Position numbers and translations under genes: made by a program. A model generated the notes under the pieces. The model saw only the letters and a program-made list of their open reading frames with translations. It made no database searches and was not told the origin of the DNA. Below, piece by piece: positions 42,000 through 46,021 of a DNA stretch of 48,844 bases. The DNA is taken from contig LJXT01000010.1 of assembly GCA_001314815.1 (NCBI GenBank), forward strand, positions 1 through 48,844. Reading direction: 5' to 3'. Each line of letters opens with the position of its first letter. Position 1 is the first letter of the stretch. The DNA is from Algoriphagus marincola HL-49 (GTDB lineage: Bacteria; Bacteroidota; Bacteroidia; Cytophagales; Cyclobacteriaceae).

Positions 42000-43235
42000 A
42001 TGATTAATTATAAACTCAGGCCACTTTTCTACTTTCTGATTCTAGATCTAATCCTTTTTTCCTGTCAAAGCAGGTCATTTCAAAAGGAATCCGGTCAGGT
42101 CGAATCATTTGCAGAAATGGTTGCTGCGGGTGTAAAACCCATTGCATTAGGTCCGCCTATGAATTCGGCGGAAATGGATCTTTTTATGCCCGAAATGGAG
42201 CGCTTAGCTGAAAAATACCAAGTTCAGTATTATCGGGAATCAGCGCTTATTCAAACGGATCTTTTCCCCACAGCAGCAAGCGAAGGGAAAGAGGTACTGA
42301 TCATTTATCAGAACCCAATTTTCTTGCAATCCTACCAAAATCTGAAAAGTGATTTGGAATCAAATTCAGTGGAAGACAAGGAGGATTTGAGCAGACGTTT
42401 CGGAAGATTGCTCGGATACCCTGTCTGGAAGATCAATGAACTTTTGGAAGCAAATTCCACCTTTCGGGATTTGGAGGATTTCGGTATTCAAGGGCAGGAA
42501 TTAAGTTTTTACTATCGGGATTTAGACCGGGCAAAGTCATTTTATCAAAATAAATTGGGATTGAATTTGCTTGCTGAGAATGAAGACTCGGCCACTTTTC
42601 AGATAGCAGGAGATTCAAGGCTGGTGTTGAAAAGCGTGTCTGGTTCGACTTACTCTGGTCAGGAAAATAAATCCGTGGCTTTGGCACTTTTGACTGATAA
42701 TTTGGAAGCCTGGTATGCACATGTTCAGGAAGAAAAAATACCTATCAAATATACACTCAAGCAAAATCCGGAAGATGCGCATGATGGATTTGTCGCTATA
42801 GACCCGGAAGGCTATTTATTGGAGTTTGAAATGTTTCGGCAGCATCCTGAGAATGAAGTATTGATGCCGGAATTACAGCGATTGGAACCGAAAGCTACTA
42901 GCCTTGGGGAAGAATTGAATTTTTATGCAACCGTTACTTGGCTGTATTATGAGGACATGCTTCCCATGGAGAACTTTATGATGGAAAACCTGGGCTTGAA
43001 ATTATCTGCAGATCAAGGATGGGCGAAGATTTATCGGGTTTCGGAAAATAGCTATTTGGGATTAGTGGATGAAAAGCGCGGGATGAATTCCTTTTCCGAG
43101 GAAAAGTTGGTGGAGGTAAAATTCGACTTGCAGGATCCGCAGGCTTGGGAAGAATACTTGAAAAATACCTTAGGCGACTCAGTTAGGACGGAGCGGACAT
43201 TTCGGGATTTGGGGAGATATTTATTTCGGTTTTAG
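42000..43235 (+). CDS. lipoprotein with two VOC (glyoxalase-fold) regions
   Basis: A 411-residue protein with a lipobox LILFSC (Cys22), so it is predicted to be a lipoprotein facing the periplasm or outer surface. Residues 40-150 are unassigned. A first VOC-like unit lies at about 165-285 ('LSFYYRDLDRAKSFYQNKLGLNLLAENEDSATFQIAGDSRLVLK', 'AIDPEGYLLEFEMF'). A second, weaker one lies at about 300-405 ('MENFMMENLGLKLSADQGWAKIYRVSENSYLGLVDEK'). VOC proteins bind metals and act on small molecules; an exported double VOC is less usual. The substrate is unknown. Confidence 0.7.
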   Translation: MINYKLRPLFYFLILDLILFSCQSRSFQKESGQVESFAEMVAAGVKPIALGPPMNSAEMDLFMPEMERLAEKYQVQYYRESALIQTDLFPTAASEGKEVLIIYQNPIFLQSYQNLKSDLESNSVEDKEDLSRRFGRLLGYPVWKINELLEANSTFRDLEDFGIQGQELSFYYRDLDRAKSFYQNKLGLNLLAENEDSATFQIAGDSRLVLKSVSGSTYSGQENKSVALALLTDNLEAWYAHVQEEKIPIKYTLKQNPEDAHDGFVAIDPEGYLLEFEMFRQHPENEVLMPELQRLEPKATSLGEELNFYATVTWLYYEDMLPMENFMMENLGLKLSADQGWAKIYRVSENSYLGLVDEKRGMNSFSEEKLVEVKFDLQDPQAWEEYLKNTLGDSVRTERTFRDLGRYLFRF

Positions 43236-43313: not shown

Positions 43314-43724
43314 ATGCGAATCACAAAAAAGGAGTTAGATGATTTGTCTTTCAAGGTAATTGGAGCCGCGATCGAAGTACACAAGCGACTTGGTCCTGGG
43401 CTTTTGGAAAGTGTTTATCAAAAATGCCTAGAAATAGAACTTTCTTCATGTAATCTTAAATACAAGAAGGAAATGGATGTTCCTGTCTATTACAGGGATA
43501 GACTGATTGACATGCAGTTTCGATGTGACTTTTTCGTGGAGGATATTCTAGTAGTTGAGCTCAAGGCCGTTTCTGAAGTATTGCCGATTCATGAAGCACA
43601 AGTTTTAAACTATATAAATCTCCTAGAGGTGCCTAAAGGGATTTTGATAAATTTCAACGTATCTAATATCTTTTATCAAGGCCAAAAAACTTTTGTTAAT
43701 AAGTATTATGAGATGTTGATTTAG
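43314..43724 (+). CDS. GxxExxY protein (PDDEXK-like)
   Basis: A 136-residue protein of the widespread but uncharacterised GxxExxY family. The name motif is seen as G29-LLE-SVY35 in HKRLGPGLLESVYQKCLEIEL. The downstream core resembles a PD-(D/E)XK nuclease: Asp72 (FRCDFFV), then Glu82-Leu-Lys84 (VVELKAV). The catalytic triad is intact, so a nuclease is plausible. It is a single gene. It is followed 75 bp later by an array of palindromic repeat units, described separately. Confidence 0.85.
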   Translation: MRITKKELDDLSFKVIGAAIEVHKRLGPGLLESVYQKCLEIELSSCNLKYKKEMDVPVYYRDRLIDMQFRCDFFVEDILVVELKAVSEVLPIHEAQVLNYINLLEVPKGILINFNVSNIFYQGQKTFVNKYYEMLI

Positions 43725-44335
43725 TGGTTATTTGAAGAAACCCTTTCTTTGTTAATTGAATATCAACAAGTTGTGATTTTATATTAGCTTGAAAAAGAAT
43801 AAACCACATAGCCACATAGGTAAGTTTTCGTAAAGGAGAAAAGGTTAGTTTTCTTTACCGTATTGAAGTGTGATTAACTACAGAGTCCTTTAGAACAATA
43901 TTTTTCAGGCCAGATATGAATTTAAAGGGCCATGTTCGCTATGGTTCTATATGGTTTAAGGAAATAAATAGGTCACATAGCCGAATAGTCTGAAGCGAAT
44001 CAGATTATACTCCATGATTATTTATTTGCCGCTATGTGTTCTATGTTTCTATGTGGTTAATAAAAATAGATAAACCACATAGCCACATAGATAAGTTTTC
44101 GTAAAGGAGAAAAGGTTAGTTTTCTTTACCGTATTGAAGTGTGATTAACTACAGAGTCCTTTAGAACAATATTTCTCACGTCAGATATGAATTTGAAGAG
44201 CTATGTTTCTATGTAGTTAAAAGAAATAGATAGGCCACATAGCTATAATTAAAAAAAGTACTGAGGCTAAATTGATCAATGGTAATCTAAAATTTAGAAT
44301 TCTAAGTAAATTCCCTTTTCTAAAAAGAGCCCTTC
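43725..44335. other. 611-bp intergenic region dominated by a repeat array
   Basis: There is no credible ORF in either direction. Positions 43725-43798 are AT-rich leader, 43799-44248 the repeat array, and 44249-44335 an AT-rich stretch that must contain the promoter of the DUF885 gene. Confidence 0.7.
43799..44248. repeat. array of palindromic CACATAG-bounded repeat units next to the GxxExxY gene
   Basis: Unit 1 is about 43799-43958, unit 2 (short) 43970-44059, unit 3 44071-44220 and a truncated unit 4 starts at about 44232. Units begin with (A)AACCACATAGCCACATAG and end with the inverse, CTATGTTTCTATGTGGTTA. Units 1 and 3 share about 130 bp with only about 8 differences, offset by 271 bp. 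The junctions between consecutive units are equal in length and nearly alike (27 nt from GTTA to ACATAG, core AAATAGAT). The unit body can form a GTAAAG/CTTTAC hairpin. No coding sequence is apparent. Confidence 0.85.
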
Positions 44336-46021
44336 ATGTTTAAAAATCTACTAATCTTCATCCTTTTCCTTATCGCTAGCTTTAATGCACAGGCTACCGA
44401 ACTAGTCCAAATGATCCAAACGTACCAAGCTGATCGAGGAGCTTTGGCGCGGTTTTATGCCAATCCCTTATCGGAAGAGTATTTTGATCGAATGGAGGCA
44501 TTCAATCTGGAATATTTGGAAACTCTGCAAAGCTATGATTATGATTCTTTTTCAGAGGATGGGAAAATCGATTACGTCTTATTTCGCAATTATCTCGAAA
44601 AAGAATTGGCAGAACTGAAGCTTGATCGAAGAGCCTTTGATGAAGTCAAATCCGTGGTTGATTTTGGAGCTCCTCTTCACCAATTTGTAGCTGATCGACG
44701 TAGAGCCAAGCAGCCGGACTCCAAGGCTTTGGCTGCAAACTGGAATCAGATTGCCAATGAGGTAGATGCCCAATTGAAACTATTGGCCAGTACTCCCAAA
44801 TACAATTCTTGGCAAAAAGCAGATCTAGCCGCTTCTGCGGTTGAGCGTCTGGCTCGCTCCTTAGGTGAGGCTTATGAATTTTATTTTGACTTTGATCCCG
44901 AATTCACCTGGTGGATGCCTGAGCCTTGGGGAAAATTAGACAAGAGCCTGAAAACTTATGCATCTGCTTTGCGAGAGCATTATACCAACTCTGTCAAAGA
45001 TGACGGAAGTGGCATCATCGGCAAACCTATCGGAAGAGAGGCTTTGCTCAATCAATTGGCTTTCGAAATGATTGCCTATTCTCCGGAAGAGCTGATCGCC
45101 GAAGCAGAGAAGCAATTTGCTTGGTGTGAAAATGAGATGCTCAAAGCCTCCAATGAACTAGGTTTTGGGGATGATTGGAAGGCAGCCTTGGAGATGGTCA
45201 AAGAAACTTATTTACCTGCAGGAGCATGGCCGGAGGAAGTTGTGAGATTGGCAGAGGAGGCTACTTCAATCATGGAAGAAAACGACTGGATCACGGTGCC
45301 CGAACTGGCGAAGGAAACTTGGCGAACCAGTATGATTTCGGCAGAGCGACAGCGTGTGAGTCCTTTCTTTTTGGGTGGAGAGGTGATTCAGATCGCCTAT
45401 CCAACTTCAGAAATGAGCCATGAAGAGAAGATGATGTCCATGCGAGGGAATAACCCTCATTTTTCTCGAGCTACTGTACAGCACGAATTGATTCCCGGTC
45501 ATCACTTGCAGCAATTTATGAATCAGCGCTACATGACTCACAGACGCTTGCTCCGTACACCATTTTGGACCGAAGGCTGGGCTTTGTATTGGGAGTTTGT
45601 GCTTTGGGACAGGGATTTTCCGAGAGATGCTAAGGATAAAGTAGGTATGTTGTTTTGGAGAATGCACCGCTGTGCACGGATCATTTTTTCTCTTAATTAT
45701 CATTTAGGGAAAATGACACCGCAAGAGTGTATTGATCTTCTGGTGGATCGGGTTGGGCATGAGTATGCCAATGCTGAGGCAGAAGTACGAAGGTCTTTTG
45801 AGGGTAGCTATGGTCCGCTTTATCAGATAGCTTATATGATTGGTGCTTTGGAGTTCTATTCCTTGCGGGAGGAAATGGTTGATTCTGGTAAAATGGAGGA
45901 GAAGGCCTTTCATGATCTGATTATGCAGCAAAACACCATGCCGGTGGAGATCTTGAGGGCAAAAGTTACTGGTCAAAGTTTGGATAAAAATCACCGTGCA
46001 AGCTGGCGCTTCTTGGATTAA
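44336..46021 (+). CDS. DUF885 family metalloprotein, exported
   Basis: A 561-residue protein with a signal peptide (LLIFILFLIASFNAQA, about residues 5-20). The family's metal motif is seen as VQHELIPGHHLQQFM (His383, Glu384, His389/390), followed by FWTEGWALYWE with a further acidic ligand. DUF885 proteins resemble M32-like metallopeptidases and are thought to be peptidases, with unknown substrate. It lies 26 bp before the M20 amidohydrolase gene, so a peptide- or acyl-amino-acid-degrading pair is likely. Confidence 0.85.
   Translation: MFKNLLIFILFLIASFNAQATELVQMIQTYQADRGALARFYANPLSEEYFDRMEAFNLEYLETLQSYDYDSFSEDGKIDYVLFRNYLEKELAELKLDRRAFDEVKSVVDFGAPLHQFVADRRRAKQPDSKALAANWNQIANEVDAQLKLLASTPKYNSWQKADLAASAVERLARSLGEAYEFYFDFDPEFTWWMPEPWGKLDKSLKTYASALREHYTNSVKDDGSGIIGKPIGREALLNQLAFEMIAYSPEELIAEAEKQFAWCENEMLKASNELGFGDDWKAALEMVKETYLPAGAWPEEVVRLAEEATSIMEENDWITVPELAKETWRTSMISAERQRVSPFFLGGEVIQIAYPTSEMSHEEKMMSMRGNNPHFSRATVQHELIPGHHLQQFMNQRYMTHRRLLRTPFWTEGWALYWEFVLWDRDFPRDAKDKVGMLFWRMHRCARIIFSLNYHLGKMTPQECIDLLVDRVGHEYANAEAEVRRSFEGSYGPLYQIAYMIGALEFYSLREEMVDSGKMEEKAFHDLIMQQNTMPVEILRAKVTGQSLDKNHRASWRFLD

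Follow-up and report, generated by a model that had tools for sequence, protein, structure and literature searches.

Spelling of terminal repeat words that follows the protein tree suggests an unrecognised nuclease-and-repeat system around GxxExxY genes

Introduction

Do the short palindromic repeats found beside a small bacterial gene belong to that gene, and if they do, what might the pair be doing? This question is raised by a stretch of 48,844 nt from Algoriphagus marincola HL-49 (referred to here as the window), in which an array of repeat units follows a gene of the widespread GxxExxY family. The original prediction, made from the letters of this DNA, held that the nuclease-like gene and the repeats could form one system, and offered as candidates a non-autonomous mobile array, a transposition-like unit handled by the nuclease and a repeat-encoded RNA partner. 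The open-access literature searched yielded no function for GxxExxY, and a paper that names the family does so incidentally. Neither PDDEXK_3 nor six printed word strings occurred in that literature. Among the titles and abstracts listed there, no description of a GxxExxY-repeat association was found either; bioRxiv and most subscription journals were outside its scope, so an earlier description is possible.

Results

The window gene and its array

The features on which the following account depends are listed below by position in the window, with the basis of each in brackets.

42000-43235, + strand: upstream flanking gene with a glyoxalase domain (Pfam, sister loci)
43314-43724, + strand: GxxExxY / PDDEXK_3 gene, 136 aa, CACATAG clade (profile matches, protein tree, AF2 model)
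43527-43565, + strand: codons of the catalytic core, D72, E82 and K84 (alignment of relatives; coordinates from the sequence)
43599-43613, + strand: QxxxY motif, Q96 and Y100 (alignment of relatives)
43792-43936, + strand: unit 1, first copy of a 145-nt repeated segment (93% identical to 44063-44207)
43799-43819, + strand: left end of the array, tandem CACATAG-C-CACATAG with AAC in front (sequence, word search)
43947-43980, no strand: junction J1, 34 nt, degenerate arms, core AAATAAAT (sequence)
43981-44048, no strand: short unit 2, with CTATGTG words in its right part (sequence)
44049-44082, no strand: junction J2, 34 nt, CTATGTGGTT-core-AACCACATAG (sequence, junction pattern search)
44063-44207, + strand: unit 3, second copy of the repeated segment (self-comparison)
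44209-44242, no strand: junction J3, 34 nt, degenerate left arm, followed by truncated unit 4 (sequence)
44336-46021, + strand: downstream flanking gene, DUF885 (Pfam, sister loci)

The window protein matched PF13366 (E 7.2e-39, 133.2 bits, cut-off 22) and TIGR04256 (E 3e-40, 137.2 bits, cut-off 35), and PDDEXK_3 was its only Pfam match above cut-off. As predicted, the gene is intact and the array begins 75 bp past its stop codon. The three junctions have the equal length and near-identity that had been claimed for them, each consisting of inverted CACATAG words as arms around an AAATARAT-like core. Exact copies of AACCACATAG were located at 43802 (+), 44049 (-) and 44073 (+). The description of the units as bounded by inverted AACCACATAG is therefore exact for J2, which alone has two perfect arms, but not for J1 and J3, whose arms are degenerate. 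The stretch common to units 1 and 3, put at about 130 bp, measured 145 nt, with the copies lying 271 bp apart. Since their homology extends, more weakly, across the junction, a tandem segmental duplication of 271 bp is likelier than two independent units, and part of the array probably grew in this way. The window copy is one-sided, with no words to the left of the gene. We also considered the array interiors as remnants of GxxExxY genes and found no convincing similarity to GxxExxY.

A predicted nuclease with a Cas4-like fold

The residues that had been singled out as nuclease-like are correctly placed and are near-invariant. Among 181 aligned relatives, D72 and E82 are present in all 181, K84 in 180, Q96 in 178 and Y100 in 177. 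QxxxY is a hallmark of RecB/Cas4 nucleases. The AlphaFold2 model of the window protein (pLDDT 97.3, pTM 0.90) had as its best solved fold match the entry 4ic1, the Cas4 protein SSO0001. The two superpose with Z 9.3 and 4.5 A over 101 residues, against Z 7.8 for the entry ranked second. The same entry was at the top of the Foldseek results (E 5.3e-3), where nothing reached E<=0.001. PADLOC matched only Cas4 models (five models, all weak, best E 7.7e-4), and the Pfam Cas_Cas4 profile scored 16.7 bits, under its cut-off of 22.7. Searched by sequence, the single protein found no solved structure at E<=1, and a profile gave a best E of 0.28. The active-site D, E and K and the modelled restriction-endonuclease fold, the marks of a PD-(D/E)XK enzyme, are both there, and we regard GxxExxY as a predicted nuclease. 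The fold appears to be Cas4-like: the Z values are only moderate, but the sequence profiles agree.

The likeness to Cas4 and RecB-type PD-(D/E)XK nucleases covers the fold and the active-site D, E and K. Four conserved Fe-S cysteines are the defining feature of Cas4, whereas cysteine is absent from the columns of the GxxExxY alignment that are at least 88% conserved; a conserved Fe-S cluster is thus lacking, and GxxExxY falls outside Cas4 as so defined. Also unlike Cas4, the window gene has glyoxalase-domain and DUF885 genes as its neighbours.

Tandem words beside GxxExxY genes in several phyla

Loci were drawn from four sources: 38 on named genome contigs from several phyla; 26 from 8 family genomes, of which 6 have the gene; 30 from a sample of 118 genomes over the phylum of the window, taken to be Bacteroidota, with GxxExxY genes in 60 of the genomes; and 90 from the genus, where the gene is present in 48 of 59 genomes. 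Nine more were added, namely the window and eight loci at the same site. The gene was recovered in 190 of the 193 loci (missing in L098, L125 and L333), and two were dropped for short flanks, leaving 188 counted loci, which are partly non-independent because many are genus orthologues and a few are duplicates (L139/L140; L164/L292). We scored a locus as having words when at least two tandem copies of C[AG]C[ACGT][AGT]A[GT], 7-11 nt apart and with at least 5 of 7 letters alike, lay within 300 bp. This form was taken from the first three sets of loci, with letter 5 widened to admit CACATAG, and the genus set was fetched only after the basic form had been fixed.

Tandem words were found at 155 of the 188 loci (29/37, 20/25, 26/30 and, in the genus, 75/89), and 33 of 190 GxxExxY loci were without them. 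Shuffled flanks gave 3, 5 and 2 of 188 in three shuffles, ParE genes 0 of 24 usable loci (30 fetched), and S23/IVP genes 1 of 30. Windows were also taken from the L061-L098 loci at distances above 2.5 kb, and 35 of these 386 had words. At 88 of the 188 loci the words are inverted across the gene, pointing inwards from both sides; inversion across the centre occurred in none of the shuffles and in none of the 386 distant windows.

Two tests that assume no word form were also applied. In an end-to-end test, in which one flank was aligned by Smith-Waterman with the reverse complement of the opposite flank against 200 shuffles, p<0.01 was reached by 20 of 30 GxxExxY loci in one set, by 18 of 24 in another (26 had been fetched, of which 24 were usable) and by no ParE locus (0 of 24 usable). 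A triple-word test, requiring at least 18 of 21 letters to be alike, was positive for 53 of 85 GxxExxY, 5 of 30 IVP and 2 of 24 ParE loci and for none of the shuffled sets. Pairing of nuclease and repeats is therefore strongly supported as a general association that reaches several phyla, each lineage with its own words. This is wider than had been proposed, and the outcome named beforehand as telling against it, orthologues mostly without repeats, is not what the loci contain.

The S23/IVP four-helix-bundle genes used as a control (PF05635, L201-L230; family present in 90 of the 118 sampled genomes) have inverted ends too, 15 of 30 at p<0.01 in the end-to-end test. They are spelled otherwise, with CTAAGAT, AGTATT and ATCAAGA types.

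Gene-less units and the history of the sites

In the genome from which the window comes, AACCACATAG occurs 22 times against 9 for a reversed control, and the back-to-back pattern TATGTGGTN{6,32}ACCACATA 9 times against 1 for its control. In this genome one PF13366 gene is intact and a second is a broken relic. Contigs C85 (two places), C126, C99, C139 and C143 hold additional arrays or relics in which these words recur. In the sister genome G143, the pieces on C126 and C99 flank one locus and those on C85 and C139 another, and an array stands where the window genome has the C143 relic. When BLAST matches were taken together and contig pieces were merged by synteny with the sister, five array or relic loci resulted, of which one adjoins the intact gene; the scatter that a BLAST search of the array had been meant to reveal thus counts, in part, against pairing. 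Array loci are few, partly common to sister species and different in content. Parts of neighbouring genes are missing beside two arrays, possibly as an effect of the assembly, which has 190 contigs, breaks at arrays and has three array pieces at contig ends. Indeed, contigs C99, C126 and C139 start or end inside or just beside repeat arrays, so that arrays seem to break the assembly.

The relics L059 (C131:20018-20230) and L058 (C143) mark two sites that are still occupied by a GxxExxY gene in many sister species. A second, GCACCGGCGGTGCGATTT-like repeat family was noticed in or beside arrays, at about 1560-1730 of L055 and about 950-1110 of L058; the two copies are 70% alike over 172 bp.

Of the 16 genomes of the genus that have a CACATAG-clade gene, 7 contain back-to-back junctions, compared with 3 of the 43 others (p=0.0024), the 16 having been identified from fetched loci, with one broken gene included and a few genes possibly missed. 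In 3 of the 10 junction-bearing genus genomes (that of the window, G118 and G139), at least one junction is no more than 500 bp from a listed PF13366 gene. Of the 96 family genomes outside the genus, 7 have junctions (8 of 98 when the window genome and the genus member G082, which has none, are counted in), and 2 of these 7 (G001 and G050) have one within 500 bp of the gene. Two family genomes have junctions and no PF13366 gene: G044 has seven and G012 one. Most junctions thus lie away from a gene, which in part is the scatter that the original prediction had named as speaking against it.

The number of gene-less units varies between sister species, as counted in draft assemblies. Two arrays of G143, at C10:1136132 and C10:1281997, have up to 305 bp in common at about 82%, interiors included, and the former contains nested units with CGCTGAT/CGCAGAT-like and CACCAAG/CACGAAG-like words. 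At L358:1440-2100, also in G143, three word classes are nested in one array, which includes an apparently complete small unit of the CACCAAG/CACGAAG type.

The site of the window gene was followed through the genus, where 57 of 59 genomes have the orthologous downstream gene, and 30 loci were fetched. Nine have a GxxExxY gene between the same neighbours (in L165, beside the downstream one), five in one orientation and four in the other. One has a remnant, and in five the two neighbours are separated by just a short gap; in several sister species the site between the glyoxalase-domain gene and the next gene is empty. The remaining 15 had no GxxExxY match within the 1.5 kb searched, although in three of them (L162, L168 and L170) a contig end truncates the locus and the sequence was read out of register. 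Three-word ends are found at several of these loci, L161 and L163 having a gene-less unit in addition, and in L147 the gene is broken and the words are altered at both ends. Two other sites of the gene in the genus are likewise common to many species. The comparison points to a gene that stays for long at a small number of sites, where it may be lost, replaced or turned round, rather than to rapid transposition. No clean insertion footprint was found in a comparison of the short-gap sites L142, L144, L145, L155 and L158 and of L156, L157 and L169, where the boundaries were not resolvable, and no target-site duplication or clean single-step insertion appeared among the occupied and empty sites compared. 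In tblastn searches, relatives of the window protein were present in 8 of 72,556 plasmid records and in none of 50,697 phage records, which gives no sign of a common mobile carrier.

A gene inherited at fixed sites, with words close by on both sides and phased at about 8-10 nt, could also mean that the words are operators. GxxExxY would then be a DNA-binding autoregulator or a toxin-like nuclease whose inverted words control its own expression, and nothing would be mobilised. We consider this unlikely, given that words also lie past the 3' end of the gene, that units lacking the gene but bearing its ends are present at other places, vary in number between sisters and nest, and that ParE, a toxin family, is without such words in 24 loci. 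We prefer to see GxxExxY as a nuclease that recognises its own terminal repeats.

Words and the protein tree

The changes of each word letter were counted over a tree built from 151 proteins. Letter 7 needed 7 changes (mean of shuffles 45.3, minimum 38), letter 2 needed 18 (45.9, 36), letter 5 needed 19 (55.3, 49) and letter 4 needed 28 (40.2, 35). CACATAG is the word of a single clade, in which it stands in 16 of 17 rows (two rows being the same gene) and which extends into other genera. Because gene and ends are linked and many genus loci are orthologous, descent by itself would make words cluster among close relatives. In the 81 rows from the genus, tree signal is retained at letters 2, 5 and 7 and absent at letter 4 (15 changes, mean of shuffles 15.4). 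Among 36 proteins less than 55% identical to one another, letters 5 and 7 were equalled by none of 500 shuffles and letter 4 did better than all but 5 of 500; letter 2 had no signal (125 of 500 shuffles as good). At such divergence neutral flanks should be scrambled, and the lasting word grammar therefore argues for function. As judged from these alignments, the agreement between word spelling and protein tree suggests an unrecognised nuclease-and-repeat system.

Letter 7 of the words correlates with residue 123 of the protein (141 of 151), and letters 2 and 4 correlate with residues 8-9. Among the results listed, independent residue-base pairs were on average 0.9 to 2.5 concordant and 0 discordant, of 4 to 11; these are too few, and the correlations are a lead only.

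The same tree bears on the idea that GxxExxY is mere cargo of an element whose ends are recognised by another enzyme. Gene-free units, including the junctions of G044 and G012, and S23/IVP genes in similar, differently spelled ends would be natural on such an account. Mere cargo is not expected to dictate the ends, however, and yet the word letters track the GxxExxY tree, and the GxxExxY and S23/IVP families carry different words. The cargo account seems to us distinctly unlikely, and recognition of the ends by GxxExxY itself remains our choice.

Anatomy of the ends

An end holds two to four words, spaced from start to start by 8 (125 cases), 9 (183), 10 (238) or 11 nt (26), and once by 7 nt. 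Comparison of the left and right ends at 88 loci gave an identity of 91% for the words (1236 of 1358 letters) and of 45% for the spacers (93 of 206), with spacers of equal length in 98 of 106 comparisons. Words that would be partners in a hairpin are 90.4% alike (1089 of 1204) and non-partner words 88.9% (1407 of 1582) over 77 distinct loci. There were 41 mismatches that G-U pairing would tolerate and 33 of the A-C type (p=0.42), which is no clear wobble bias. The words thus appear to be conserved as words and not as hairpin pairs. Near-equal likeness of partners and non-partners, together with the mismatching spacers, is more in line with phased words that are recognised separately than with RNA pairing.

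Intervening sequences (IVS) of 23S rRNA have complementary ends, as GxxExxY elements do. This invites an RNA-level reading in which the ends of the transcript pair and are processed by RNase III or the nuclease, and folding is better than in shuffles for the unit (z -2.9) and for gene plus array (z -3.7, 20 shuffles). According to PMC4990558, IVS with S23 proteins are likewise short elements with one small ORF that are maintained vertically, and RNase III excises them. The GxxExxY element differs from them in lying between protein genes rather than in 23S rRNA, in encoding PDDEXK_3 and not PF05635/S23, and in having words that are not conserved as base pairs. Tandem identical words, moreover, are unneeded for a hairpin, and no Rfam match was found. 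We regard an RNA-level element as highly improbable, and for the same reasons the repeat-encoded RNA partner proposed earlier is disfavoured.

Discussion

We think it reasonably probable that a Cas4-like nuclease and its cognate repeat ends form a persistent system resembling REPIN-RAYT, with an unrelated enzyme. GxxExxY would be a small Cas4/RecB-like PD-(D/E)XK nuclease recognising its own terminal repeats. Each repeat end would consist of two to four tandem 7-nt words of the form CRCNDAK, spelled CACATAG in this clade and spaced at 8-11 nt, about one helical turn, and a full element would have the order end, gene, inverted end. Gene-less units with the same ends would be non-autonomous derivatives, comparable to the REPINs of RAYT transposases. 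The data show the linkage of words to gene, the common architecture, the intact active site, the co-divergence of words and protein, copy-number differences in draft assemblies, and the sharing and nesting of gene-less units. We infer that the nuclease attaches to the phased words as an oligomer and cleaves the DNA at them. Units may then be spread or amplified at a low rate, mostly at occupied sites, when a cut unit is repaired or re-inserted. The system would persist by long vertical inheritance, with decay and replacement in place. The window would hold a decayed member whose gene is intact, whose left end is lost and whose right, gene-less array has been enlarged by tandem duplication. Of the candidates first put forward, the non-autonomous mobile array or transposition-like unit thus corresponds to the favoured reading, although the comparisons yielded no clean empty site or target duplication for it.

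The closest parallel is provided by REPIN-RAYT systems, which according to PMC8049555 and PMC3116915 have single, vertically inherited enzyme genes and duplicate their gene-less units at a low rate. By these sources and PMC3733652, the likeness to REPtrons and TIRtrons extends to a single nuclease or transposase gene with repeats or inverted ends on its flanks, to palindromic doublets that lack the gene, to vertical inheritance over long periods and to a repeat class specific to the enzyme. Inverted short-repeat doublets specific to the lineage of the nearby enzyme, by which RAYT-REPIN systems are recognised, are a property of the GxxExxY system as well. The enzyme, however, is PD-(D/E)XK and that of RAYT a HUH tyrosine transposase; the ends are phased tandem words, not GTAG-tagged palindromes; and units are far fewer here (9 junctions in the window genome). 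With PDDEXK_3 as the sole Pfam match above cut-off, the HUH transposase is absent and the GxxExxY system is not a member of REPIN-RAYT. The resemblance to MITEs of insertion sequences lies in gene-less units that keep the ends of the gene-bearing element and in the terminal inverted repeats of many GxxExxY family members, the window copy being one-sided. Unlike in these, the gene matches PDDEXK_3 only, and target-site duplications were not found. A role in defence, with the nuclease attacking invading DNA, the words marking or regulating self and the repeats kept by host selection, would agree with the Cas4-like fold and the long persistence at fixed sites, but it is hardly credible beside weak PADLOC matches to Cas4 models only and nested gene-less units that look selfish.

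A bolder form of the reading we favour is tentative and, in our judgement, rather less than an even prospect. GxxExxY elements may be selfish elements of a class that has so far gone unrecognised and is widespread in bacteria. A minimal Cas4-like nuclease would here mobilise itself and gene-less units through a residue-to-base code for phased tandem 7-nt words, to which the residue correlations given above are leads, and a sister class would be built on S23 four-helix-bundle proteins and other words. If the system is as we propose, the GxxExxY family gains a function, a large class of interspersed tandem-word repeats is explained, and a Cas4-like nuclease joins the HUH and DDE enzymes that work with repeat ends. 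Because words and protein diverge together, binding assays would be a direct test of specificity. A DNA-recognition code might, moreover, emerge from the words that occur in nature, for a nuclease that is mostly 120-140 aa long.

Two further observations concern the neighbours of these elements. In L065, L066, L073, L079 and L081, from Bacteroidota and Lentisphaerae, GxxExxY elements seem, by eye, to lie just 5' of a gene for a polysaccharide-export-type ABC-transporter ATPase, some of them between the permease and ATPase genes. At the window site, a conserved block (GCCATTGAG...GAATATTCTATGTT) precedes the DUF885 orthologues of L157 and also of L156, L161 and L163; it is possibly a leader or regulatory element.
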